Below, piece after piece: positions 8,708 to 51,403 of a stretch of 64,000 nt of DNA (within the stretch, counting starts at the first letter, position 1; every line of letters begins with the position of its first letter). A program made the position numbers and the translations under genes. Source of the stretch: Cladochytrium replicatum. Taxonomy: Eukaryota; Chytridiomycota; Chytridiomycetes; Cladochytriales; Cladochytriaceae. The DNA is taken from NCBI GenBank assembly GCA_025526935.1, contig JAHLKD010000003.1:496001-560000 (forward strand), read 5' to 3'. The notes under the pieces were generated by a model. The model worked only from the letters and a program-made list of their open reading frames with translations. It searched no databases and was not told where the DNA came from.

Positions 8708-9178
8708 GTTTATTTGCCGCTGTACAAAACTATATCAAATGTAATGTCGAGACAAGAAACACAGTCGAACTTGCAGTCTAACGGAGTGCATCGCGATGTG
8801 ACTTTTCTCTTCTGTTTTGGCGCTGGATCGCTTCAGCCTTGTGCTAGATCGCTATGTTATCTTCAAATACGAGTTTGACAGGCGGGTCAGTGAGGCTCCT
8901 GTCAGCTTCGACCACCTTCCTTCCCTAGATCGCTCGTGCGGGTCCTGCCCCAGTCCAACACTCACAAACACAACAGCACAGACGCGCAACCAACTTACGC
9001 TCAACCGAGAGCTTAAGTCGAGAACACGTAATATTTGAAGAAGTGCACACTTATAATGAGCCCAATCCCCCGCTCTTCTCGATCCCATTGTTTCACCACA
9101 ATCAAGCATCAGGCAGCAAAGTACAGCCAACCAGTCGATTTCCGAAAACAGGATCATTGAAAGTAGCCCAACATCAAA
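8708..9178. other. Gap between the Myb/SANT gene and the copia remnant
   Basis: No convincing gene. A 73-codon plus-strand ORF at 8817-9038 has no recognisable features. No LTR is evident immediately left of the copia homology, so that element is 5' truncated here. Confidence 0.5.
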
Positions 9179-12100
9179 ATGCCCAAGGTTGAACCGGATG
9201 CATTCAATCTTGTCAACAAATCAATCATGCAGAATTGTTTGGTCGGTAGTCGCACGAAGCTGAAGCAGAAGCCGATTTATTCTACAATAAGTCTAGCTCC
9301 GAGGAAACTTTTCTGTCTCTTTTCCGGTGTCGTAGGTTTAATCTACGACAGACAGAAGAAGAGATATTGGCAGATCATTGTCGACGAACAACCTCGTTTC
9401 ATCACAATCTACTTCCTGAATCGAAAGAGTGATGCGGCCGATAGTATGATTCGACATATCGCTGATGTAGAGAATCGCAATCACCCATTACACGTTGCTG
9501 AACTACGTTCCGATTCAGGAGAATTGATTACGAAACGGTTGATCCAATGGTGCAATACCAAGATTCCTCGTATTCGCGTCCACCCAGCTCCCCCGTCAGT
9601 AAAGGAGCTCGATGGTCTATCAGAGCGGAATATACAGTCGATCAAGTATATGTCAGAAACGATGCTGCTACAAGCCAGACTACCGCAAACACTTCAATTT
9701 GTGCAACTTTCCATCCTATACGCTGCGGTCATCAAGAAGCTACTTTCCATTCAGCTGTGAATTTGATTCCATACTGTGCTTACCTTGACAAGCGGATAGA
9801 TTTGGCAACTATCCACGCCTTTGGAACACTCGTTAGTTTGTGGATCTCACACGAACAAAGGTTGGCGCACAGAATCAGAGACAAGTCTGAACTAGGTCTG
9901 TTTCTGATACAAGGGTGAAGACCTGAAGATCGTCATAGCACTCAATTTTCGGACAAACACAATAGGCGAATACTTCCATGTTACGTTCCACGAGGGAGTT
10001 TTTGTTGGTTATAATCCTACCCGACAGTTACTCGACGATCTTACGGTACAATGTCCACTGAAGGCCGGGACATATTTCGATGTTGATCAAATACCAACCG
10101 GGGATCAGGAGGTGCAAGAGACGACTGTTGAGTTTGTCTCAGACAATTTCCCGATTTCTACCGTTGCAGATGAAGAAATCGATGAGGATACGAACGACAA
10201 CCCCATATATTACCGCTTAGAAGAAGCCGGTGACATGCATGTTGTTGAACATTTACGTGGACTACACGATGATGACCCAGACGATGCTGATTACGATCCA
10301 ATTGCTGCTTTATTGACTCCACAATCCATTACTGAAGAATCTCCGAATTTGTCTTCCGTATCTCCTGTAGAGGAATATGATGCACAACTCGAAAGTGATC
10401 TTCAATTCATTGGAGAATATGTCGACGAAGCGTATGCAGCAAGAAAACGAAAACGTCAAGCAAGTGCAAATTTGTCGAACGCCAAAAGGAAACAAAATTC
10501 CTTGTTTACCCAGTCCGTTCCTAATATCGATTGGACCCTGAAGGCCGATTCCTCATATCCAACACAACCAATTGCGAATGGAAATATACGGACTGCACCA
10601 AAGACTCTTCGTGAGGCTTTATCACGATCCGATGAGGCTCCATTCTGGTTAGCGGCGATGAAGGAGGAAGTCACACAACTAGTCGGCAACAATACTTGGG
10701 CCGAAACGTTTTTACCTGATGGACGGAATTTATTATCGGGCAAATGGGTTTTCACATATAAGCTTGACGAACATGGCAATATTACTCGATTCAAAGCACG
10801 TTGGGTCGTACGAGGATTTTCACAGATTGAAGGATTGGATTTCGATGAAACCTATTCTCCAGTTACGAAAACGTCCACGATCCGTTTTCTGATTGCATTA
10901 GCAGCATTAGTCGGCATGATCATATTCCAGTTTGATATCAAGGGTGCATATCTCAATGCGATACTGGAAGAAGAGAACTACGTCGAACTCCCTCATGGTT
11001 TCGGGCGAGTAGATTTCCGGAATCGACCCATCGTCTGCAGACTTATCAAAAGTCTGTACGGTCTACACCAGGCAGCTCGAGAATGGTACAAAACTCTTTG
11101 GAAACAATATCTCAGTGTTGGTTTCGTGAGGAATATTGCAGACATCTGTCATTTCTGGCGATACAATCCAACAAATAATACCCGCGAACACACTACCGTT
11201 CATGTCGATGATATACTACATTTTTCCACAGATCCAAACGCATATCATCGGTTTCAGACCGATTTGGAAACTTCGTTCACAGTAGGCAGTACTTCGAAGG
11301 CGAAATGGATTCTGAAAATGGAGTTATTGCAGACAACGGAAGGATATTTCCTTAGCAATTCATTGTACGTAAAGAAGATTCTCGAAGAAGCGAACTTATG
11401 GGGTACCAACATCAAACCGACCAAAACACCGATGTCAAAATCATATATCTTTGATGAGACCACACCAACACTGTCCGATGCCGAGGCAACACAATTTCGA
11501 TCAATGTTAATGAAGATATCGTACGTGGCGACTAAGACACGACCGGATATTTCATACGCAGTCAATATTATGGCACAACATCAGATTGATCCTCGACAGT
11601 CTGAATCAAAGGCTCTCTATCGATTACAATGATATTTACTCGGTACTTGGGATTACGCTTTACACTATACACGGACTGGTATCACGTCTCCGATGCTAAG
11701 ACCCGACGGTCTCTACATGTTTGATTCGGCTAACAACCCACAAGGTTATGCCGATGCAGACTGGGCGAGCGATGCAGATAGATACTCACGAACCGGTTAC
11801 GTGGTAATGTTCGCTAATGCGGCAATCAGTTGGCAATCGATTCGACAACAGACTATTGCAGCCTCGTCGTCGGAAGCCAAACTGTATGCGCTGAACGAAC
11901 TATCGCGTGAGATGAAGTGGATGAAAAATCTTATGACGGGTATCGGAATTACGTCGTTCAATCCGCTCCGTTTATGGCAAGACAATCAATCCACCGAGTC
12001 TATCGCAAACAATCTGTCAACAACAAACGGACTAAACACATGGACGTTCGCGAGAGATTTGTGAATCTCCAAGTTGAACAGAAACATCAGGAGTTACACC

Positions 12101-12216
12101 ATATGGATACTTCTGATATGATCGCGGACATCTTAACTAAACCTCTTGGAAGTAAATTATACCTTAAACACAGGGGCTCGTTGGGGCTAGTCAGTCAGTC
12201 TTCACGGAGTGCTTGA
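9179..12216 (+). mobile_element. Ty1/copia retrotransposon remnant 1 (integrase, RT, RNase H)
   Basis: Degenerate copia-type pol on the plus strand. Integrase pieces start near 9179 (SIMQNCLVGSRTK), shift frame near 9750, and pass through the HEGVFVGYNP segment at about 9985-10015. The long ORF 10112-11632 holds reverse transcriptase: KWVFTYKLDEHGNI, FDIKGAYLNA, SLYGLHQAAREWYKTLW, and HVDDILHFS in place of the usual YVDD box. A TGA at 11630-11632 interrupts it, and the next block carries RNase H motifs (GYADADWASD, SSSEAKLYAL, WQDNQS). The final part shifts frame again and ends with ADILTKPLGSKLY. No gag, protease or flanking LTRs were found. It is clearly dead. Confidence 0.92.
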
Positions 12217-16569: not shown

Positions 16570-19399
16570 CTAATACCACATCAAAATCCTCGCCAAAATA
16601 TGCACCTTTACAAAATCCTCACTAACGTCACTTTTTGAATCTAGGGAATCATTTTTGAACGGTTCTTCAGCACTCAATTGATGCAACCAGTCATGACGGC
16701 ACATCGACGCATTTATTGTTCTTGGAGCAAGGCGGTTGCGAGTTGCAGGTACCAAATCAACCCCGGCTGAAAACTTTCGTTCGACTGGAGCGCTTGTTGC
16801 TGGTATTCCTAAATAGTCCATTGCCATCTGGCTTAGGGCTGGAAAGTTCACACTTCCAACGGTCTTCCACCAGTCCATAATATTGATTGGCTTCCCATCA
16901 GAATCAATACCGTCGCATTGTAGACAGCGCTATTTAAGATGATGAGAACTAATTGATCAAGTTAGGTGCTTCAAATGTACCGAAGAGCTGAGTCTAGCTG
17001 TACAGGAGTGCAAGATGGAACCTGCCAAGCTACGGAAAGGGAGGTCGTTTGACTGTTTCGCAAAGTTATTTTGCCAACGGTCCACCTTGTGGATCGATCA
17101 AGAGCGGCAGGCCACACGTAAGAAAGGGCAGCGAACGGCGGTGCCTCTTCGTGAGAGCCAAAAGTTTCAATCTGGCGATGCACATCAACTAAACAAACAC
17201 GATGTCGCATCAGGCTGCCTACCACCCCAGAGACAATGTTTAGGAGTCGCATTGCACACAGAGTACTCGAAAGAATGGATCCTATCAAAAAAAGTGAATA
17301 ACTCCGCTGCTTAATGGAAAATTTCGTGAAGCATATATTTGTCCGGAGTACCTGATCGCCAAGATAGCGATCCAGCTCATCTTCTTCCTCAGGAATCTCT
17401 TCTTGCCAGATGAAAACGGATCTAATGGCTCTCAAGCGTTCAGCGTCCGTTTTTTTCTGTCTATCACCGGAAGCTCCGCTCGAATCGTGTCGATGTTCTG
17501 GCGTGTTTCCAAAAACATCGGCACCACTGTTCTTGATTTTCCGTGACTTATACGATTCCTCCCAGACTTTCCGCACTAGGGTGACCTGATCCCTTCCTAC
17601 ATCTTTCTCCCAAGCCTTTGAAAATCGATAATATTGATCCTTAAAACCAGGATCGAGTACCGTAGCAACTGCTAAACACGGGCTCTTAGCGATTGAGTAA
17701 TATATTCTCAGCTTATCTAGTGCATTTCGAAATGCTTTGGTGAAAGTTTTATCCATTTCTGCCTCCTCTAGGTCCTCCAGTTGATCGATAAGATCGTTGT
17801 AAAATGGAATAACAAGCGGAAGTGTTGGATATCTAGACCCCTCAATTGCCTTTGATATAACCTCGAAAACACTCAAACCATCCCGGATCTTCTGTAGGAC
17901 CTCCCATTGCTTTGGATTTATTGACCAATCTTTCAAAGAATCTTCAATCCAGCATATTTTGTCCATTGCCTCTCGTAGCTGTAAGGCTCGTTTGACCATA
18001 TAGAATGTGCTATTCCAGCGAGTTGTCACATGGATAATTGGTTATAGAGGAACCAGTTTCACAAATTGGCACGAATCAATAAATGAACTTTGTTGTTTTG
18101 GGGAAGACCGGATTCCTCTGACTAGCCGTCGAAGAAGGTTTATGACATTAACGCCGGAGTTATCGTCATTTGCGACTGTGTCCCCTGCGGGCGCGAATGT
18201 ATCGATAAAATCCTTTGCTGCAAGATTGATAATGTGTGCCATACACCGCATGTGTTGAGTTTCTGCAGACCACGCAATATCCCTATCTTCCAAGAGCGTC
18301 TCCAGCTTAGCACTCATGGTAAAGTTGTTTGAACCGTTGTCGGTTGTAATGCACAATAAGCGTTCACCCGATAGCATGCCAAATTCATCCAGACACTTGA
18401 CAAGCTGACTAGCCATGGCGACGCCTTCATACTTTCCAACCATCGGAATCATCTGCAGCAGCAAGTCCTGCGGCTCCCATTCTTTCGTGATGAAGTGGGC
18501 AGTAATTCCAAGAAAAGAAATCTGGTTCTTCGATGTCCAACAGTCAGCTGTTATTGATACTTTTGAAGGCGAACCAACAATCAGACCTTTAACGAGCTCC
18601 TTCTGCCTATCGTAAAGATCCATCTCCTTTTGCTTCACTGCTTTTGCCGTCTTTGGTGTATACTTTGGCTGAAAAGTCTTCAGCATGCTGACAAAGAACT
18701 CGTTCTCCACAACAGTAAAAGCCTGATTGTCTGCAGCAATCCAGTCCAATTCGACTGCCACACTACGTCTGGATTGAACACAAAGTTTTGCTCCTTCTCC
18801 TGCGAGCCGAAATTCAATGTCTGTTGTCCCTTGGGGACGATGTCCAACAGTCCAAGCGACCTGGCAATACTTCCATGGTGGTTTTTCAGATGCTGGAGGA
18901 AGTTTTTTGTTGATCCCGTCTTATCGACCTTCTGGCTCCACTTGCATTTCGCAACCAAACATGTTCTCAGACCATTATCAACCTTATAGTAATCCTTCGC
19001 TATGCCGCCTCGACTACCTCTACAGTCGGACATGCTATCAACATCTGCGTCTGATGAAAGCATTGATGGATGAACTTATCCAGCTGCAGGCTCCTGTCGC
19101 ACTGAAGAGTCAGCAAAACTAACGTCGGCAGGAAGCTCTGGTGCATGCTGAGAAGCCAGGCCCAACTCGCTGGAGTCATTGGAAGAAGATGTGGAGCTTG
19201 GCTCTCGAGCGCTGCTGTTGCCACCGTGTCCTGATACACGTCTGCGTTTGTCCTGAATGCTGTTCCCCTCGCTGGACGCCTCTGAAATTTGGGGGGCTGG
19301 CAGACTTCGCTTCCGTGTGTCAAGCGGATGACTGTCCACCAGTCTTTGGCTTGCGTCGGACGCTGCCTTACGCTTTGGTTTAACAAAGGCGGCGTCCAT
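16570..19399 (-). pseudogene. hAT-family transposase, degenerate
   Basis: Reading leftward from ATG 19399 (MDAAFVKPKRK): a Ser-rich basic N-terminus; a BED-type zinc finger region (CLVAKCKWSQK ... FLQHLKNHHG); the RNase-H-like core with ITADCWTSKNQISFLGITAH, CITTDNGSNN and HMRCMAHIINLAAKDF; then VTTRWNSTFYM, AVATVLDPGFKDQYY; and the C-terminal dimerisation domain (DYLGIPATSAPVERKFSAG) ending near 16570. It is broken by an in-frame TAA at about 19076, a frameshift near 18770, an in-frame TAA at about 18042 and a further frame change near 16900-17000. No intact left terminus was seen, because copia remnant 2 abuts it at 16485. Confidence 0.9.
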
Positions 19400-40113: not shown

Positions 40114-43100
40114 TTAGCTAGTTGGCTCAGGTGACGGAGCAGGAGACGGCGCAGGGGAGTTATCTTCACTTGCAGCATATTCAGTAGAATCATTAGAGAG
40201 TAAGAGATTTGACTGATCCTTTTGAGGCAGAGAATTTTCACCACGAATAGCAGTATTGTTCCCATTATCCAGTGTCTGGCCATCAGAGTCACTCTCGTCT
40301 TCACTTGATTCTACTCTTTCTGCACTGTGGCGTGCTATTGATTCCATCTTCCATTCAGGAAAGTTGAACGAAGCTTCATCAAAATTCAGAACAAATTGAT
40401 GCTTTGTTAATAGATCTGTTGCAGTTGGCCGTGAAGTAGGATCAATCTTGATACAGTCTCTTATGAATGATAGTAATATGTTTGAAAAACTGTTATCTGC
40501 ATCAGGAATAGGTGGACTGTTGTAGTTTCCAAGCCTGAAAAGAATTTGATTTTCATTTTGAATTGTAAAGCCTGTGTGATCTTTTTTGCTGGACAATAGC
40601 CAAGGTGTACATCCAGTACTCATTTCAAGTGCTACACAGCCCAGAGACCAAATATCTACTTTCGCTGAATAACCTGTCTTTGCAGATCGAACTACTTCAG
40701 GAGCCATCCAGGGAACAGAACCTTTAAGTGACATATTATTATGAACGGCATAGGGAACTGCTGACACTAAATCCAAAATCAGGGAAACTGTTAAATGGAG
40801 ATTTCAACCTTAGATACCTGTCTTTTTAGAGATACCAAAATCTGCAATTTTCACTTGCCCTTGAGAACTTACGAGCACTATAGACCTTAATTAGCTTGAT
40901 AAATAAGGTATTTATGACACATACAGTTTCCACTTTTGATATCTCTATGGATGATCATGTGTTTATGCAAGTATTCTAAACCCCGCAGGGATTGAACAGT
41001 TATTGATTGAACAGCTGGCTCAGTAAAAGCACCAGTTTTTTGGAGAAGGGATGCAATTGAGCCACCATCGACATACTCCAGAAAGAGAGAAATAGTGTTC
41101 TCTTGAACATCATAACCTTAAAAACAACATTACTCTTCCAAATGAAACATGGTAATCTTTACAATATTACCAAAATATTTGACAATATTTTCATTGTCCA
41201 AACAGCTGAGTAACTCAATTTCTTGCCTTAGTGCATCGACAACTCGCTTTTTGGTCAACTCTCGGGCACCAGGTAGCTTTGGCTGAACAAAATTGACCTG
41301 CCAATAGAGCTTTGTAAGGTTCCTTAATGTTTTCTCTATAAAATATACCTGTTTAACTGCCATAACTTCATTTGTGGTCTTGGATAATCCTATCCACACT
41401 GAAGCGAATGCACCTTCCCCAAGCTTTGCCCCTCTCACCCATGACAGTTTTATTTTTTCTTTCTCAGAAAATGCAACCGCATCATTTCCACCTCGAATAC
41501 TGTTATTTTCCTTGCTATTTTCATTGAGATTCTCTGAGAGTCGGGGGAAGGGGATAGGTTCTGAAACTAGCTCATGTTGATCTCTAATAGCCAACCCACG
41601 AGAAGATGAACCAGCATCAAGTACCACATCATCTCCAAAAAGCGCATCAGTGACTGCACTTGTGACATCATCTACAACTGTGGAAACAGAATCTTGCAGT
41701 GAGCTCAAAGTGCCAGAAGCAATTCTTTTTGTGTGGTCAATCAATGATATAGCATTCTTAATATCAGGCTCAATGATAACGTTACTCCCTCCCTGATTGA
41801 GAAATTTTGAGAGCATTTCTTGCCATTCATGCAATGATTTTGAGGAATCTCTTTCTGATTCTTTGCTTTGTAAAATCAGTTGGGAATTTGATGGCAAGTT
41901 ACTAGCTTCTGATTCTGGGAAGTAATAAGACAACTTTTCTCTGATATTATCAATATTAGGTCGTTCCGTCAAAAGTCTTGATTTTGAAAGGAACTTTGAC
42001 CTGGTTGTTCCTCTACGCAACTTCCCTGATTTTGAAATGATATGAGGATTACCATCAGGCACAGATACAACATGAGGATCACTATCTGGTTGAATCAAAA
42101 CCAGTGTTGGGACAATCTACACAGATGACATGAGCATAAATCAACAATGCTTTGTCTACTTACTGGACTATTGGAATTTAGAGCATCCCCCATGGACATC
42201 CTGTGTTCAAGCTTATAAGGTTCAATTTTCTCAGCTTCATCAGAATTACTCTGGGGTAATTGTGAAGTAGAATAGTGAAGCAAAGTTGGGGTGAAATGCT
42301 TCTGATCATAATTGTTCATTACAGAGCCATGAACTTCCACTTCATGATTAGTCTGATGTGCAAGTGAGCTGTGAAGCAGAGTTTGAGTATCTGACTGCTG
42401 GTTGTCTGACTGCTGATTGTTCTTGTCCTGTACTGCATTTAGCGTCATTGAAACATCGCCTGCTAGAACATTTGCTTGATGCTGGGGTTTGCTTGGCTGA
42501 ACGTCTGAAGGTGGAGCATTCAAAGCAGATTCGTGACCTAAACCGGTCAATGATGCGCTTGAAGTCTGACTGTGCGACCGAGCAGTGCGAAGTGACTCAA
42601 ATATGTCCCGGACACTCCGCACCGAGCGCAATCGACCAGATTTTTCTTCGTGCGTTGCCGTGTTGCCTTCACTCAGCGAAGCACGAGAAGCGGGTCGCGA
42701 TTCAGAACCTGTTGCCCTAAAGAAGCCCAAAGCGCTTTTTGGCCGAGTTTCTCCACGCCGACCGTCAAATGAGGTTCGCAAACGCGACAGCGTTCGTGAG
42801 AGCTGCTCAGACAGACTATTTCGCTTCCCAGCGCGTCCCGGATGATCGGAATGACTGTCTATAGACCCTTTTCTGAAGGGTGCCGGATCACCGTCCGTAT
42901 CAAAAGTAACCGTTTTTTGGCCCGTCCACTTTGAAGGTGAGGCATAGACCTGAATAGACATTGTCAATTACGTCAAGAAACTTGATGGTTCACTCACTGG
43001 AGATACTCTTCCAGAAATCGGCGACTCGAGGACTTCCTCCACCTGTGGCTCCACACTGTCGATCGATTGCTCAACTCGCTCACTCGAGCGAGACCAAGGT

Positions 43101-44376: not shown

Positions 44377-45809
44377 ATGACGGTGATTGAACTCACAGAA
44401 GACGAACAGATCAACCAAGTTTTCAAGAGTCCCGATGCTATCGGGGTTCTTAACTTCTGGGCATCCTGGGCTGAACCATGCAAGCACATGAACACCGTAT
44501 GCAATGCATATATTCACAGAGACACTTCATCCTTACTAACCTTGCGAAGGTTTTCAAAGAGTTGGCGAGCCAAAACCCGGGTCTGGTTTTCATATCGGTG
44601 CGAACGATATTTATCGTTTTGTGTGTTTGCTTAAGTCTTCTTAGCTGGAAGCTGAACGTGTGCCCGAGATATCAGAGAACTATGAGATTGAATCAGTCCC
44701 AACTTTTGTGTTTGTCAAGGTAGCTATGGTCATTGGCTGCTGAATATATGTTGAGCGGCAGTTGCTTTTGGGAAAAAGGGAGCTTCTGTGCTAGATCGGG
44801 TGGATGGTGCGAACGCTCCGCAGCTTACTTCGTTGGTGTCGAAGTACGCCAAATCGGTCGTTCCACTTGCAGTCCCTGCGAACCCGAAATCAGTCGAACA
44901 TGACGTACCATCAGACCTGAATACGAAGCTGCGTAATCTTATCAATCGCTCAAGAGTTGTGTTGTTCATGAAGGGTACACCGGAGGCACCTCGATGTGGA
45001 TTCTCAAGGAAGACAGTGGAGCTTCTGGACTCCCTCAAGGTTCCCTACAGCACGTTCGACATTTTGAGTGACGAAGACGTTCGTCAAGGTTGGTCTATTG
45101 TTGAATTTCTTGAACTCGCCTCATATATGTTTGTTCGTAGGACTCAAAGATTTCAGCAAGTGGCCAACATACCCTCAGAGTAAATTGCGTCGGATTAATT
45201 GCGATACATTTTTAAACTTATTTTTGTAGTTTACATTTCTGGAGAGTTGCTCGGAGGACTTGATATCTTAAAGGAGATGATTGACAATGGCGAATTCCAA
45301 ACCTTAATCAAAGACGCAGAACCAATGTCCCAGGAAGCGCGCTTAAAGCAGCTGATAAATAGGGCTTCTGTAATGATATTTATGAAGGGCAACCCTACTA
45401 CACCTCGATGTGGATTTTCACGCCAAGTTAGCTTATGCCATCACCATCTCAGCGCTGTACTTACATAATGGAAAATAGCTTGTTGAACTTCTGCAGGAGC
45501 AGAACGTTGAGTTCGACTATTTCGACATTCTGGAGGATGAAGATGTCCGGCAAGGACTGAAGGTAAAATATAGAAACAAATTTTGTTTGCTGTTATGAAC
45601 ATACGTATCAATGAACTTCACACTTTCAATTCGAACAGGTATACTCTAACTGGCCAACGTATCCCCAAGGTAGCAAAGTACATAGAGGGGTAAACTTTTA
45701 TCATTAACGTTGGTGAACAGTTTACGTAAAGGGCGAGCTTATTGGCGGGCTGGATATTGTTAAGGAGCTCATCATATCAGGAGAGTTCGCATCCCAGTTG
45801 GCAGTGTAA
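44377..45809 (+). CDS. GRX3: Monothiol glutaredoxin Grx3/PICOT, thioredoxin plus two glutaredoxin domains
   Basis: Cytosolic-nuclear iron-sulfur chaperone and iron sensor. An N-terminal thioredoxin-like domain ([56 protein letters not shown]) is followed by two monothiol glutaredoxin domains, each with the CGFS active site: [20 protein letters not shown] then [17 protein letters not shown], and [20 protein letters not shown] then [17 protein letters not shown]. The stop is TAA at 45807-45809. Introns are short; the one at about 44716-44760 could not be closed in frame (VFVK to AFGKKGAS) without a one-base change. Two glutaredoxin domains is the animal arrangement; yeasts have one. AATAAA overlaps the region just past the stop. 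Confidence 0.93.
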
Positions 45810-45912: not shown

Positions 45913-46670
45913 CTACACCAATGTATCCTCGTTTCTGCAAAGTCGATGTGATAAGATCATATGCATCGTACATAGTGTGAAAACTAACCTCAAAAACTCT
46001 CCAATATCTGCTTGGTGAAGAACAACGATGCCGCTTGGGTCCAGTTTACGACAGTCCCCTGTGGACTTTGCCGTTACCCCAAATCCCTGTTCCATATTGA
46101 ATCTCATACACACAACCATGCGGATTTAGTGTCTTACCAGAGGAACGTCCGACATAGAATAAACGACAACACCTTGGTTTTCTGGTGTATCTTCTGTGAT
46201 TCGACCCAAATGTGCCTTGAGGACGTGATTTCCGTACAGGAACGGCATCTCTCCATTCGGTTTGACCCAAACTTTGTACTTGGCATACTGTGCCAAATAC
46301 TCCAACGCCGTAATGTGCAGCCGGAACTTGCCGGTTTTAGTGAACTTCCCGAAGCAGATTCCAAGCGACATGAGCTTATCCCGTGTCACTGAGGTTGCCT
46401 TTTTCATGATCGACTCGCTTGGTGGCCAATTAATTCAGTGCAAATTTTGTATTTGAACAGTTTTCTGTATTTGATACCTGACGTAAAACACCCTGTCTTT
46501 GTGAAGTCGGAAGCAGTATGGTTCATCAGGTCGGTCGATCAAGTGCTGAATGTTTCGGCCGATACTACACAACCAGGGCATCAGCTCTACTCTTCCGTTT
46601 CTCTGTTCAAATACAATTTAGACAGCTTTGTGAAAAACGTCTTCGTTTCTTCTTCTGTGAGTGGTCGCAT
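45913..46670 (-). CDS. NIP7: 60S ribosome biogenesis factor Nip7
   Basis: PUA-domain protein required for 27S pre-rRNA processing and 60S assembly. ATG 46670 ([19 protein letters not shown]) and a second exon ([27 protein letters not shown]) make up the N-terminal domain. A further exon holds [40 protein letters not shown] and [18 protein letters not shown]; the last holds [12 protein letters not shown] joined to [20 protein letters not shown] and [13 protein letters not shown] plus the terminal residues. The stop is TAG at 45913. Similarity to human NIP7 is continuous, with about 180 residues expected. Confidence 0.94.
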
Positions 46671-47734: not shown

Positions 47735-50700
47735 TTAATCCTTGTTTCGCTTGGGAACGAGGTCGTAACTGCCAAAAATACCATGGTCTAAACGCACACC
47801 TTCGGGTCCTCCTGCGGTATTATGGGTCATATGTGCGGGAGGTATTTCTTTGGAAATGCCGGTCATCAGGGAAAATACTGGGTTAACCCCAGGCAACCCA
47901 ACGATTCCATAAATTCCGTGATCAATTGTGAGGGTTTGATCCATTGAAGCTGTGCGCCCTTGATGGCTGTACACACCAGACGACCCTGTCATTAATGAAG
48001 TAGACGGAGAGCTTAAAGCGAACCCTTTCAATCCATAGATCCCATAGTCAATGACTCCAACATGTTCAGAATGCTTCGTGTCCGTTGTTTTCTGGGCGTT
48101 GTTGGTTGCCCTTGACTGTGCAATTTGTAATACACCGTTTCCCATTCCTTTGCTTCCGGTCATGAGTGAAAGAGCTGGCGTTGTGCCTGGCAGACCTATA
48201 ACCCCGTAGATCCCGTGGTCGATTCCTCGAGCGTGCGATTGGTGTGCAATTGCTCTCGGTACGTTGCTACCGTGGACGGCTGATGACCCGGTCATCAATG
48301 AAGTTGGCGGTCCTTTCGATGGAATTCCCAACACCCCGTACACACCATAGTCGATGACGACTCTCTGCAAGTCACGTTTGAAATGATCACTGTGGGCGGC
48401 GGATAATCCAGTCATCAATGAAGTTGCGGGTTCTATGGATGGAATGCCCAAAACTCCATATATACCGTGATCAATTATACCTTTATGAGCATCGTTGACT
48501 TTCTGGTTGAGGAGAACGGCTTCTTTTAGTGTGTTGGTATGAGCGTTCTTGCTTCCAGTCATCAGAGACAGGTTGGGGCTGATTCCTGGTGAGCCGACAA
48601 TGCCATATATTCCATGGTCAATAACAACCGATTGAGGGTCCGCCTTGTTGAGCACATTTTTATTTCCCGATTTATTGATGACCTTATCGAGATTGAAGTT
48701 TCTGTTGTGCGATGCTGTCATTAGAGAATATGGAGGCTCTAAGGATGGAATTCCTTTCAAGCCGTATATCCCAAAGTCAATCACACCTTTATGGAGATCG
48801 CCACGTTCAGAGAAAACAAGTAGTTCAATAGCGCAGCCTTCCGTGGGGATCAAGTTGTGATCAACTTGACTCTGTTGGTCTGAAACGCACAGCTCTATTG
48901 CTTGATTATTGATGTGATGCTCCCCAATGGATTCTTGCTGTATTTCCTCATCGTGTTGATCTTGAGAAACATTGTAATGTTGGTAAAGTTTCTCCAATCC
49001 TTGCCAAACAATGGGCAAATCCCTTTCCCGAGCGTCAGTTATGCTTGTATCCACACCCGGCGAGTACAATTCAAGGTCATCAGGGTTGATGTGATTAACA
49101 GTCATATTGTCCGGGGCTACAACAAGGAGCTCTTCAGCTTGGTCATTGAGATCATCAGATGACGCATCTCCGAAAAATTCGGTCCATTCGCTTGTCCCGA
49201 GCTCTAGACAGACGACAAGCTCTTCGGCAAAGCCGTTGGAGCACACGTATTCCCTTTTAGCTCCGATAAGGTTCTCGACAAAGTTTAGCTCGATGGCTTG
49301 TCCACCGATACTTTCAGAATTGCCTAGAATATGGATTTCGGCTCCATACTTCTCAATGGACTCTTCTAGCCTCACGTGTCGATCCATTTCAACTTTGTTA
49401 AGCTCTTCAATTCCTTGCCACATGGCTAAAATTCCAGCAGACTTTGGAGCACTTAAATTGTTTTCATTCTTCATCTCCATTTCGGCTAGCTCTGAATATT
49501 CAGCTCCAGACATTGGCTTTGAAAGACGACAACTGATAAGTTCTTCTGCTTGATTGTCAAGGATGTCATCTGATTGTATTCCGTCAGTCTCTGTCTTCTT
49601 ATTAGATATTGGCTCAATGGGCGAGCCCTCCCTCGGTGCCGGACGGTCAGCAGATTCCGCTATTTCGGCGGAAGTGTGAGAAGAAGGTTTGGATGGTGCG
49701 ATTTGAGGAAGTGCTGTTTTCTTCGCAAAGACATGCTGCTTCTGGTCAGCAGCTGGAGGGACTGATGCCGGCTGAGATGCTTTCTTCGCAGGCCTCTTGT
49801 GCTTTGGAGGAGGCGGAACACTGGGTGGTTGCGGTTCAAAAGAGCGGGTTGGCTCGACCGGTTTTTCTTCAAAAGGAGCAGTTTTGACGGCAGATGGATT
49901 GCTTCTCAGTGATACAATTCGCTTATGATGAGTACGGGTGTTTGACTGCACGGAACGCTTATTTTCGATTTCCTCTTTGATTGCTGTTTCACCGACAACC
50001 CCCGGTTTCTGCAACTTCGGCGGAGAAGGAAATCCCAGAAATGTATCCATACTTTTGCGAAGTCGAATATATCGACGGGGGTATGTTGAAATGCTTTGAA
50101 GGTATGCGAGATTTTGGCGACGTTCCAGCAACCAGCGATAGTGGTCATAATGTGGTTCTTTAGATTCGAGTCGTTGAAGAATAGCCTGCAGGATTTCATA
50201 AGGAAAGGATATTATAATTTAAGAAGTTTTGTACTATACCTGGTTTTCTGCATCTATTTTGTTATGCTCCTGTTGACGAGAAACGTAATTGAGCGAGTGG
50301 CCGTAGCTCAACTCATCCTCCATCCATGTATAATCTTTATGGTTTCCCTCTGCTTTCATAATGTGAGACATCTTGTCTAAAAGAATTCTGTTCTCTCTTT
50401 CTATCTGGGCGATTCGATCTGCATTGCTGGTTTAGTGGTGTGCATCATTAGATTTATTCACTCCACCTTCTTCAACTTGCATTCGCTTGAGCTTCAGTTG
50501 TAAATGCATGTGTATTCTCGGAGGTGCGTTATCAACAGTTGGTCTAGCTTTTGCCAGTTTCTCAAGATGAAGCCGCCGGTCAGCTAGGTCCCATTGCTTT
50601 GCTAGCAGTTTGTTGCAGACAGGATGGAAAGGGATATAATGACGATGTGCGGTAGGGTCCTTGAAATTCCGTCCTCGTTGCAAGGGCTTGGGTTTGGTAT

Positions 50701-51403
50701 GCTCATTAAATTCAGAGATCAGCGTATGCTCAAAAGTGCCGTCGTTGGGTGCTGTCCATTGACGTGGGTGATATATCTCGTCACCGAGTGCATTTCTGAC
50801 GTCGCTCTCATTTGAGAGAGCTTGTTCACCATATGTTTTGTATTCAGGAGGCTCCTGATGATTGTGAACATACGGTTCATCGCTGGCGTTAACAATTGGC
50901 TCCTCATGAAGCTGATTTTGGGCTATGTCATGAAAGTTTGGGTCCGCCGCAAGCCATATCACATCTGCTGCAGTGTTTTCTTGAGATACTTCCTGTGCCC
51001 ATCCAGAATCATATTGCTCGCCAGTGTCCTCGGGCTGAGAAAGTTCGGCAGCACCATACTGTTCATTCCCCATGTTACTACTCTCTGTTCCTCCGTGAGC
51101 CGTCCCCTCGCCGTTCTTAACTTCAAGATCAAACTCATCAAAGTCGTATTGGTTTATCTGACTGTGATTCTGTGCTACTTCGCTGGTCTCCGATTCATTT
51201 TTGGCCCAATCTGTGGCAAGATTCACTTCAATCTGTGTTCATACACTTGGAGTGACGCAACCCAGATCATGCTCACCTGCCTGCTTCAAGCCATAGTCAT
51301 CACCCTTTAGCTGGACATTATCAAATCGACTTTCGGTTGCGGTGAGATCGCTGTCATCGTTAATTCCGAACTGGTCTATTGCTAAAGGTGCAAGGTCGGC
51401 CAT
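47735..51403 (-). CDS. CFAP97/Hemingway-domain protein with two internal repeat arrays
   Basis: Very large predicted ciliary protein (about 1,150 residues). ATG 51403 (MADLAPLAIDQFGINDDSDL) splices to an acidic Asn/Gln/Glu-rich region, then a CFAP97 domain: ARPTVDNAPPRIHMHLQLKL, RIAQIERENRILLDKMSHIM, SLNYVSRQQEHNKIDAENQA, ILQRLESKEPHYDHYRW. This parallels CFAP97D1, including the ILxRLxxxKPHYD box. A basic Pro/Ser linker follows. Next come six copies of a short NxQAIELxV motif and two copies of a WQGIEEL block. Finally there are eight copies of an IDHGIYGxxGxPxxxPxxSLMTG repeat, 40-57 residues apart, up to the stop at 47735. The last 2.4 kb of coding sequence is one exon. The domain identity is firm; I do not know either repeat type. 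Confidence 0.8.
47740..48790 (-). repeat. Eight-copy protein repeat (IDHGIYG ... SLMTG) at DNA level
   Basis: Motif cores lie near 48761, 48601, 48455, 48335, 48205, 48031, 47902 and 47769, spaced about 120-170 nt. The cores are conserved and the linkers between them vary in length and sequence, so the array is old and under constraint rather than a fresh tandem duplication. Confidence 0.9.

Follow-up and report, generated by a model that had tools for sequence, protein, structure and literature searches.

The 64,000-nucleotide stretch of the Cladochytrium replicatum genome analysed here (contig JAHLKD010000003.1, positions 496,001 to 560,000 of the forward strand; hereafter, the window) contains on its minus strand a gene that joins a domain of the CFAP97/Hemingway family to a long tail with two sets of repeats, which we denote A and B. 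When joined across three GT-AG introns of 66, 48 and 54 nt, its four exons encode 1166 amino acids without a stop, from the ATG at 51403 to the stop codon at 47735, exactly the span assigned by an earlier reading of the same DNA (the original prediction). The gene model is based on the GT-AG introns and the reading frame; its soft point is the acceptor of intron 1, which was picked for frame and for the matching resumption of the open frame in a duplicate of the gene, described below. Because the end of the CFAP97 domain and all the repeats share exon 4, a single open frame of 827 codons, the fusion of domain and repeats that had been claimed is present in the DNA itself, free of any splice guess. 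The original description of a domain followed by repeats in one long exon applies to the domain end and the repeats, but the domain as a whole spans exons 2 to 4.

Judged by sequence comparison, residues 231–389 are a true CFAP97/Hemingway domain, as had been proposed. The best match in the PDB was the CFAP97 chain of 8snb (E = 1.6e-37), which we take to be the sea urchin protein, followed by bovine CFAP97D1 (8otz, 1.5e-17), another CFAP97D1 (9v10, 6.5e-17) and, more weakly, a ‘KIAA1430 homologue’ (9e2g, 2.7e-11) and CFAP97 (9e78, 1.6e-7). In the search of the genome (50.5 Mb in 198 contigs), where the match was read through an intron, PF13879 scored 58.2 bits at this gene against a cut-off of 25.6, whereas exon 2 alone remained under the cut-off with 20.4 bits because the introns split the domain. 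The domain is homologous over its full length to those of the other members of PF13879 (CFAP97, CFAP97D1 and CFAP97D2), and here too the host genome has several flagellar families. The solved relatives, however, are chains of 158–231 amino acids, whereas the protein described here combines, in its 1166 residues, the domain with an acidic N-terminus and a 777-residue tail with the A and B repeats; the match of exon 4 to CFAP97 chains in the PDB is confined to its CFAP97 part.

The A region (residues 556–815), which lies between a proline-rich linker and the B array, is strongly acidic (net charge −41) and consists of two tandem blocks of about 135 residues with the common motif order QAEEL, WQG(I/L)E, QAIEL, xA(E/I)EL, the corresponding motifs being offset by 137, 138, 132 and 132 residues. 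Alignment of one block to the other scored 77, compared to a best score of 58 among 2000 shuffles. We identified six (N/G)xAxEL-like sites (residues 563, 647, 670, 700, 779 and 802) and two WQG(I/L)E sites (residues 607 and 745); the loose (N/G)xAxEL-like pattern also occurs once outside the repeat region, at residue 96. The six copies of NxQAIELxV/AEELxV that had been claimed thus correspond to six sites, but their fit to ‘NxQAIEL’ is only loose; likewise, both of the claimed WQGIEEL...QAIEL blocks have their WQG(I/L)E site but form one structure with the six xAxEL sites, namely, the two four-motif blocks. Seven weak matches of A block I to PDB chains, mostly DARPins (E from 0.066 to 1), were dismissed.

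The B array comprises seven full units and a C-terminal half unit, which together account for the eight motif starts; the second half of the motif, SLMTG, is found in all seven full units (as SLMTA in unit 1), so that, of the eight copies of IDHGIYGxxGxPxxxPxxSLMTG in the original prediction, seven stand in full and the eighth only as a half. Mean identity among the seven full units is 60% over 26 residues, and five positions (G6, Y8, G12, S21 and L22) are invariant across 13 aligned B units; unit 6 lacks the first proline of the consensus. Alignment of one half of the array to the other scored 243, with a best score of 65 among 1000 shuffles. The successive unit starts are 53, 49, 40, 44, 57, 42 and 45 residues apart, and because of this irregular spacing the notion of a regular repeat acting as a periodic ruler is unsupported. 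At the DNA level, the units have diverged, with 34% identity at third positions and 72% at first and second positions; because of this divergence, Tandem Repeats Finder listed no array at the repeat region, and the empty listing together with the diverged third positions rules out a recent DNA tandem array. By eye, units 1–7 are of two types, PS and PG, which follow one another along the array as S G S S G S G (with a divergent unit 6); this near-alternation perhaps meets alternating sites. Also by eye, ‘IDQFGI’ and ‘DDYGLK’ in the conserved N-terminus (51277–51403) look like halves of B motif starts.

A second copy of the gene was identified on another contig (C61), within a block collinear with window positions 40142–62759 (C61 about 274400–294200), with roughly 67–77% nucleotide identity over the longer pieces. 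The block suggests an old segmental or whole-genome duplication, and genes for CFAP77 (contigs C1 and C4) and another CFAP97 gene (C50 and C42) also occur as pairs which, taken together with the block, suggest a genome duplication in this flagellated fungus. The reading frame of the C61 copy is broken by two stops and shifts about seven times, while the adjoining GATA gene is open there (125 of 183 amino acids identical); the copy is probably a recent pseudogene, with assembly errors as the alternative.

To measure selection, we compared the window gene to this broken duplicate over 1071 aligned codons, calculating the ratio of nonsynonymous to synonymous substitution rates (dN/dS) with the Nei-Gojobori method and bootstrap ranges; the frame in the duplicate was chosen by local score, with two candidates at 39 positions, and one or two residues at 563–566 of the codon alignment still look misassigned. 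In all regions of the gene, dS was between 0.95 and 1.18. The dN/dS value was 0.05 (bootstrap range 0.02–0.09) for the CFAP97 domain, 0.11 (0.06–0.16) for the B motifs and 0.39 (0.22–0.64) for the B linkers, the latter two at an equal dS of ~1.1. Given that the value for the motifs is well below that for the linkers, the alignment indicates that the B units are held by selection as units, with freer linkers, and it would place this selection almost on a par with that on the CFAP97 domain. For six of the seven B units in the duplicate, the closest unit in the window gene is the one in the corresponding place (unit 3, interrupted by a stop in the duplicate, does not follow this rule), and therefore the order of the array is old and has been kept. 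The shuffle scores for A and B, together with the dN/dS contrast, rule out chance or low-complexity repeats. A neutral expansion devoid of function could be proposed on the grounds that the second gene copy is broken, so that one copy seems dispensable; however, purifying selection differs sharply between motifs and linkers of the same array, and the B units remain 60% identical as protein while their third positions have fallen to 34%. Provided that the alignment is right, neutral expansion is contradicted for B in this lineage, and less certainly for A, and we regard it as having next to no likelihood.

Table 1. Features of the CFAP97-repeat gene (window coordinates; aa, amino acid positions in the protein).
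Feature	Position	Strand	Basis or remarks
Whole gene, CFAP97-domain protein with repeat tail, 4 exons, 1166 aa	47735..51403	(-)	spliced model
Exon 1, conserved N-terminus, aa 1-42	51277..51403	(-)	dN/dS 0.15 (bootstrap 0.04-0.45) vs duplicate
Exon 2, acidic N-terminal stretch and start of CFAP97 domain	50467..51210	(-)	net charge -34 for aa 1-230
Exon 3, middle of CFAP97 domain	50240..50418	(-)	CFAP97 chain matches, gene model
Exon 4, end of CFAP97 domain, Pro-rich linker, A blocks, B array, stop	47735..50185	(-)	single open frame
CFAP97/Hemingway domain, aa 231-389, interrupted by introns 2 and 3	50069..50647	(-)	PDB CFAP97 chains, PF13879, dN/dS 0.05
Pro-rich linker, positively charged, aa 390-555	49571..50068	(-)	16% Pro, net charge +11
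A block I, motifs at aa 563 QAEEL, 607 WQGIEEL, 647 QAIEL, 670 FAEEL	49166..49570	(-)	motif order, block alignment
A block II, motifs at aa 700 QAEEL, 745 WQGLEKL, 779 QAIEL, 802 CAIEL	48791..49165	(-)	motif order, block alignment
B array, aa 817-1166, 7 full units and one half unit	47738..48787	(-)	consensus [IV]D[HYF]G[IV]YGxxGxPxxxPxxSLMTG; dN/dS 0.11 motifs, 0.39 linkers
Starts of B full units (the I/L)	48781, 48622, 48475, 48355, 48223, 48052, 47926	(-)	motif reading of translation
B terminal half unit, VRLDHGIFGSYD..., C-terminus, start 47791	47738..47797	(-)	translation; retained in duplicate as well

Neither repeat could be assigned to a family in Pfam or the PDB, in agreement with the original prediction, which had recognised neither of them. 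A profile of 13 B sequences retrieved no PDB chain at E ≤ 10, a two-unit B stretch had no match in the PDB, and 0 of 13 single B units matched Pfam at E ≤ 10. As positive controls, a single 31-residue FAM166 unit of this genome retrieved FAM166A/B/C chains from the PDB (best E = 7e-6), a SHIPPO profile of this genome retrieved ODF3/CIMAP1 chains (8.7e-20), and CFAP77 of this genome matched CFAP77 chains. Matches of exon 4 to NCBIfam and Pfam models (Csd2, E = 1.6e-4 and 21 bits vs. a cut-off of 182, two weaker ones, and Med13_C, E = 2.5) were far under the cut-offs and were dismissed. Searches of the genome with three B units and the A region, at the protein level, found only this gene and its duplicate, and the other CFAP97 loci (C50, C42 and C30) showed no match to A or B. 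Behind the CFAP97 gene of C30, two long open frames in the same orientation (383 and 490 amino acids) have no Pfam match at E ≤ 0.001, possibly another fusion. A 26-base pattern for the B motif start matched the genome nine times, with six matches in this gene, two in the duplicate and one on contig C69, which, from its three forward frames, was judged to be a chance match. Elsewhere, pattern searches gave 9 matches among viral contigs and 125 among genomes of prokaryotes; no match was confirmed, as expected for a protein of eukaryotes. In the open literature, two papers contained one of four motif strings; judged from their titles and abstracts, they are unrelated.

In shape (tandem, 25–31 residues, rich in Gly, Tyr and Pro), B resembles the short PYG and GFG lattice-binding repeats (PMC10973386; this paper and those below are cited from excerpts). 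The PYG repeats (FAM166/CIMIP2, C10orf82) are, like B, short tandem Gly/Tyr/Pro modules, found in ciliary proteins (PMC10973386), but they sit on the inner surface and have no detectable sequence kinship with B; a FAM166/PYG origin was rejected for lack of a match in the PDB or Pfam, the FAM166 control having worked. The GFG repeats (CFAP77, EFHB) are tandem units of ~31 residues with Gly-Phe-Gly (PMC10973386), comparable to GIYG in B and GIFG in its half unit; B, however, has no PDB match at E ≤ 10, and its signature is GIYG, with GIFG only once. A by-eye look at CFAP77 of this genome for a GFG origin revealed nothing convincing. For the Mn, NWE and SNYG modules, the absence of a PDB match to B at E ≤ 10 is only an indirect check, Mn units being too short to be picked up in this way (PMC10973386). 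SHIPPO repeats (ODF3/CIMAP, STPG) share with B a G-x-Y near the start of the unit and a P-x-x-S-L near its end, and a SHIPPO protein, CIMAP1, is depicted together with CFAP97D1 among external doublet proteins (PMC11779644). Nevertheless, PGP is absent from the 13 aligned B units, whereas most SHIPPO units of this genome carry PGP or PAP. The hhalign score of B vs. SHIPPO, 10.7, was reached by 25 of 400 column-shuffled controls (11.8 with the profiles swapped, reached by 12 of 400), and the profile alignment covers little beyond PxxSL, which leaves a SHIPPO origin of B borderline.

The host is most likely a flagellated fungus: the genome contains 24 matches to PF04082 (Fungal_trans), and several flagellar families are over the cut-off (RIB43A, CFAP77 in two places, SHIPPO, and a single match of FAM166 type), which would imply cilia. 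This setting makes an axonemal role of the protein likely; its location, partner and function we infer as follows. A review counts CFAP97D1 among the proteins of the outer doublet surface (PMC13406575), a figure legend names it with the external microtubule-associated proteins of sperm (PMC11779644), and sperm doublets of Tssk6 knockout mice lose CFAP97D1 and EFCAB3 but retain all inner proteins (PMC13066092). These data on relatives argue for an outer rather than an inner doublet site, contrary to the microtubule inner protein that had been suggested. A microtubule inner protein or periodic ruler could draw on the likeness of B to inner-surface modules, which is in size and composition only (PMC10973386); given the outer position described for CFAP97D1, the variable spacing of the B units and their lack of a match to FAM166 (PYG) or other PDB chains, we consider it very unlikely. 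The CFAP97 chains number three in 8snb and nine over 8otz (a 48-nm model) and 9fqr (a 96-nm model), which would fit one copy per 16 nm.

Loss of CFAP97-family proteins harms axonemes in the fly (PMC10425847) and the mouse (PMC7444823); chytrids are mentioned in neither of these two papers, and ‘fung’ occurs twice in one of them, in general remarks. The protein might act in assembly of the flagellum or in transport, in the cell body or the transition zone and outside the mature axoneme, with the repeats binding tubulin or transport particles beforehand. Such a role would parallel that of Drosophila Hemingway, which is required for assembly of the sperm flagellum without apparent localisation to mature sperm (PMC10425847), but solved structures of doublets include both CFAP97D1 and sea urchin CFAP97, and Drosophila CFAP97D1 was seen in cilia (PMC10425847), so that we rate this role as improbable.

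We tentatively favour, at slightly under even confidence, an axonemal protein of the CFAP97 family in which the CFAP97 domain serves as the anchor on the outer doublet, and the tail, flexible and multivalent, uses its B units to clasp an axonemal partner that is itself repeated, perhaps tubulin. By homology and from the chain counts, the CFAP97 domain would most likely fix each molecule to the outside of the doublet, with roughly one copy every 16 nm, as seems to be the case in the animal relatives. The enlarged C-terminal tail would be mostly unfolded on its own, consistent with fold predictions for the isolated repeats, which reached no confidence (predicted local distance difference test scores, pLDDT, of 38 and 33, from alignments of 7 and 2 rows); such low values are to be expected for modules that fold on a partner, but also for orphan sequences in general when the alignment is shallow. 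Each of the seven full B units would be a separate binding module between freer, variable linkers, a proposal made because selection is stronger on the units than on the linkers, and would probably clasp a single copy of a partner found repeatedly along the axoneme, most likely the lattice of tubulin or else a surface protein repeated on that lattice. Like staples in a row, the units of the tail would thus stabilise the doublet or tie accessory complexes to it, and the acidic A blocks may add weaker docking motifs for a different partner.

A different role for the same tail has to be weighed here, namely, that of a scaffold whose short linear motifs recruit soluble partners, such as a kinase, light chains or docking factors, rather than tubulin, with the CFAP97 domain as the anchor and the A and B motifs gathering signalling or assembly proteins in several copies. 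Motif arrays typically combine separate conserved motifs in variable linkers with irregular spacing and no confident fold, as is the case here, mouse CFAP97D1 belongs to a module with the kinase TSSK6 and EFCAB3 (PMC13066092), and the net charge of −41 in the A region is unlike that of a direct binder of the acidic outer surface of microtubules. The B unit, however, at ~25 residues conserved over most of their length, exceeds most linear motifs, and there is no known partner; we consider such a scaffold a genuine possibility, although one that we would not expect to prevail.

Several observations weigh against the outer-doublet clasp reading. Tubulin binding by B is no more than possible; the irregular spacing (40–57 residues) does not imply a strict lattice register; and the profile comparisons show no clear kinship of B with a known lattice module, the SHIPPO comparison alone being borderline. 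The dN/dS value for the A motifs, 0.26 (0.12–0.51), compared to 0.40 (0.25–0.64) for the A linkers, is at most suggestive of greater conservation of the motifs, given that the bootstrap ranges overlap. The sole second copy is broken and comes from the same genome, so it does not represent an independent lineage. Among the structures, 9e78 and 9y6s, with eight chains, do not fit the 16-nm count simply, and the lack of apparent localisation of Drosophila Hemingway to mature sperm also counts here (PMC10425847).

The rest of the window contains a retroelement with an RVT_2 reverse transcriptase (9162–12205), presumably of the copia type; a copy on C61 shares 97% identity with it over 3048 bases, so that the family is a young one. 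A hAT-like transposase fragment (16971–18041) has a weak Pfam match under the cut-off (E = 1.8e-4). The ordinary neighbours of the CFAP97-repeat gene are those for a NIP7-like PUA protein (46126–46434, minus strand) and a glutaredoxin (44755–45183, plus strand).

The locus thus contains a real gene with a real, selected repeat family, for which our searches found no match among known modules, on a known domain. One could go further and propose that with the B unit flagellated fungi have a module for binding the axonemal lattice that had not been described before, used as a chain of clasps on the outer doublet, hung from a CFAP97 anchor, and corresponding on the outside to what the PYG, GFG and Mn repeats are in the lumen, although we consider this broader proposal rather unlikely. 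According to a recent review, ciliary microtubule proteins of the outer surface are less defined by motifs than luminal ones (PMC13406575), and cryo-electron microscopy of fungal doublets was absent from the matches listed in our literature search. A selected repeat array on a conserved doublet domain offers a concrete handle on fungal flagella: one protein and one motif.

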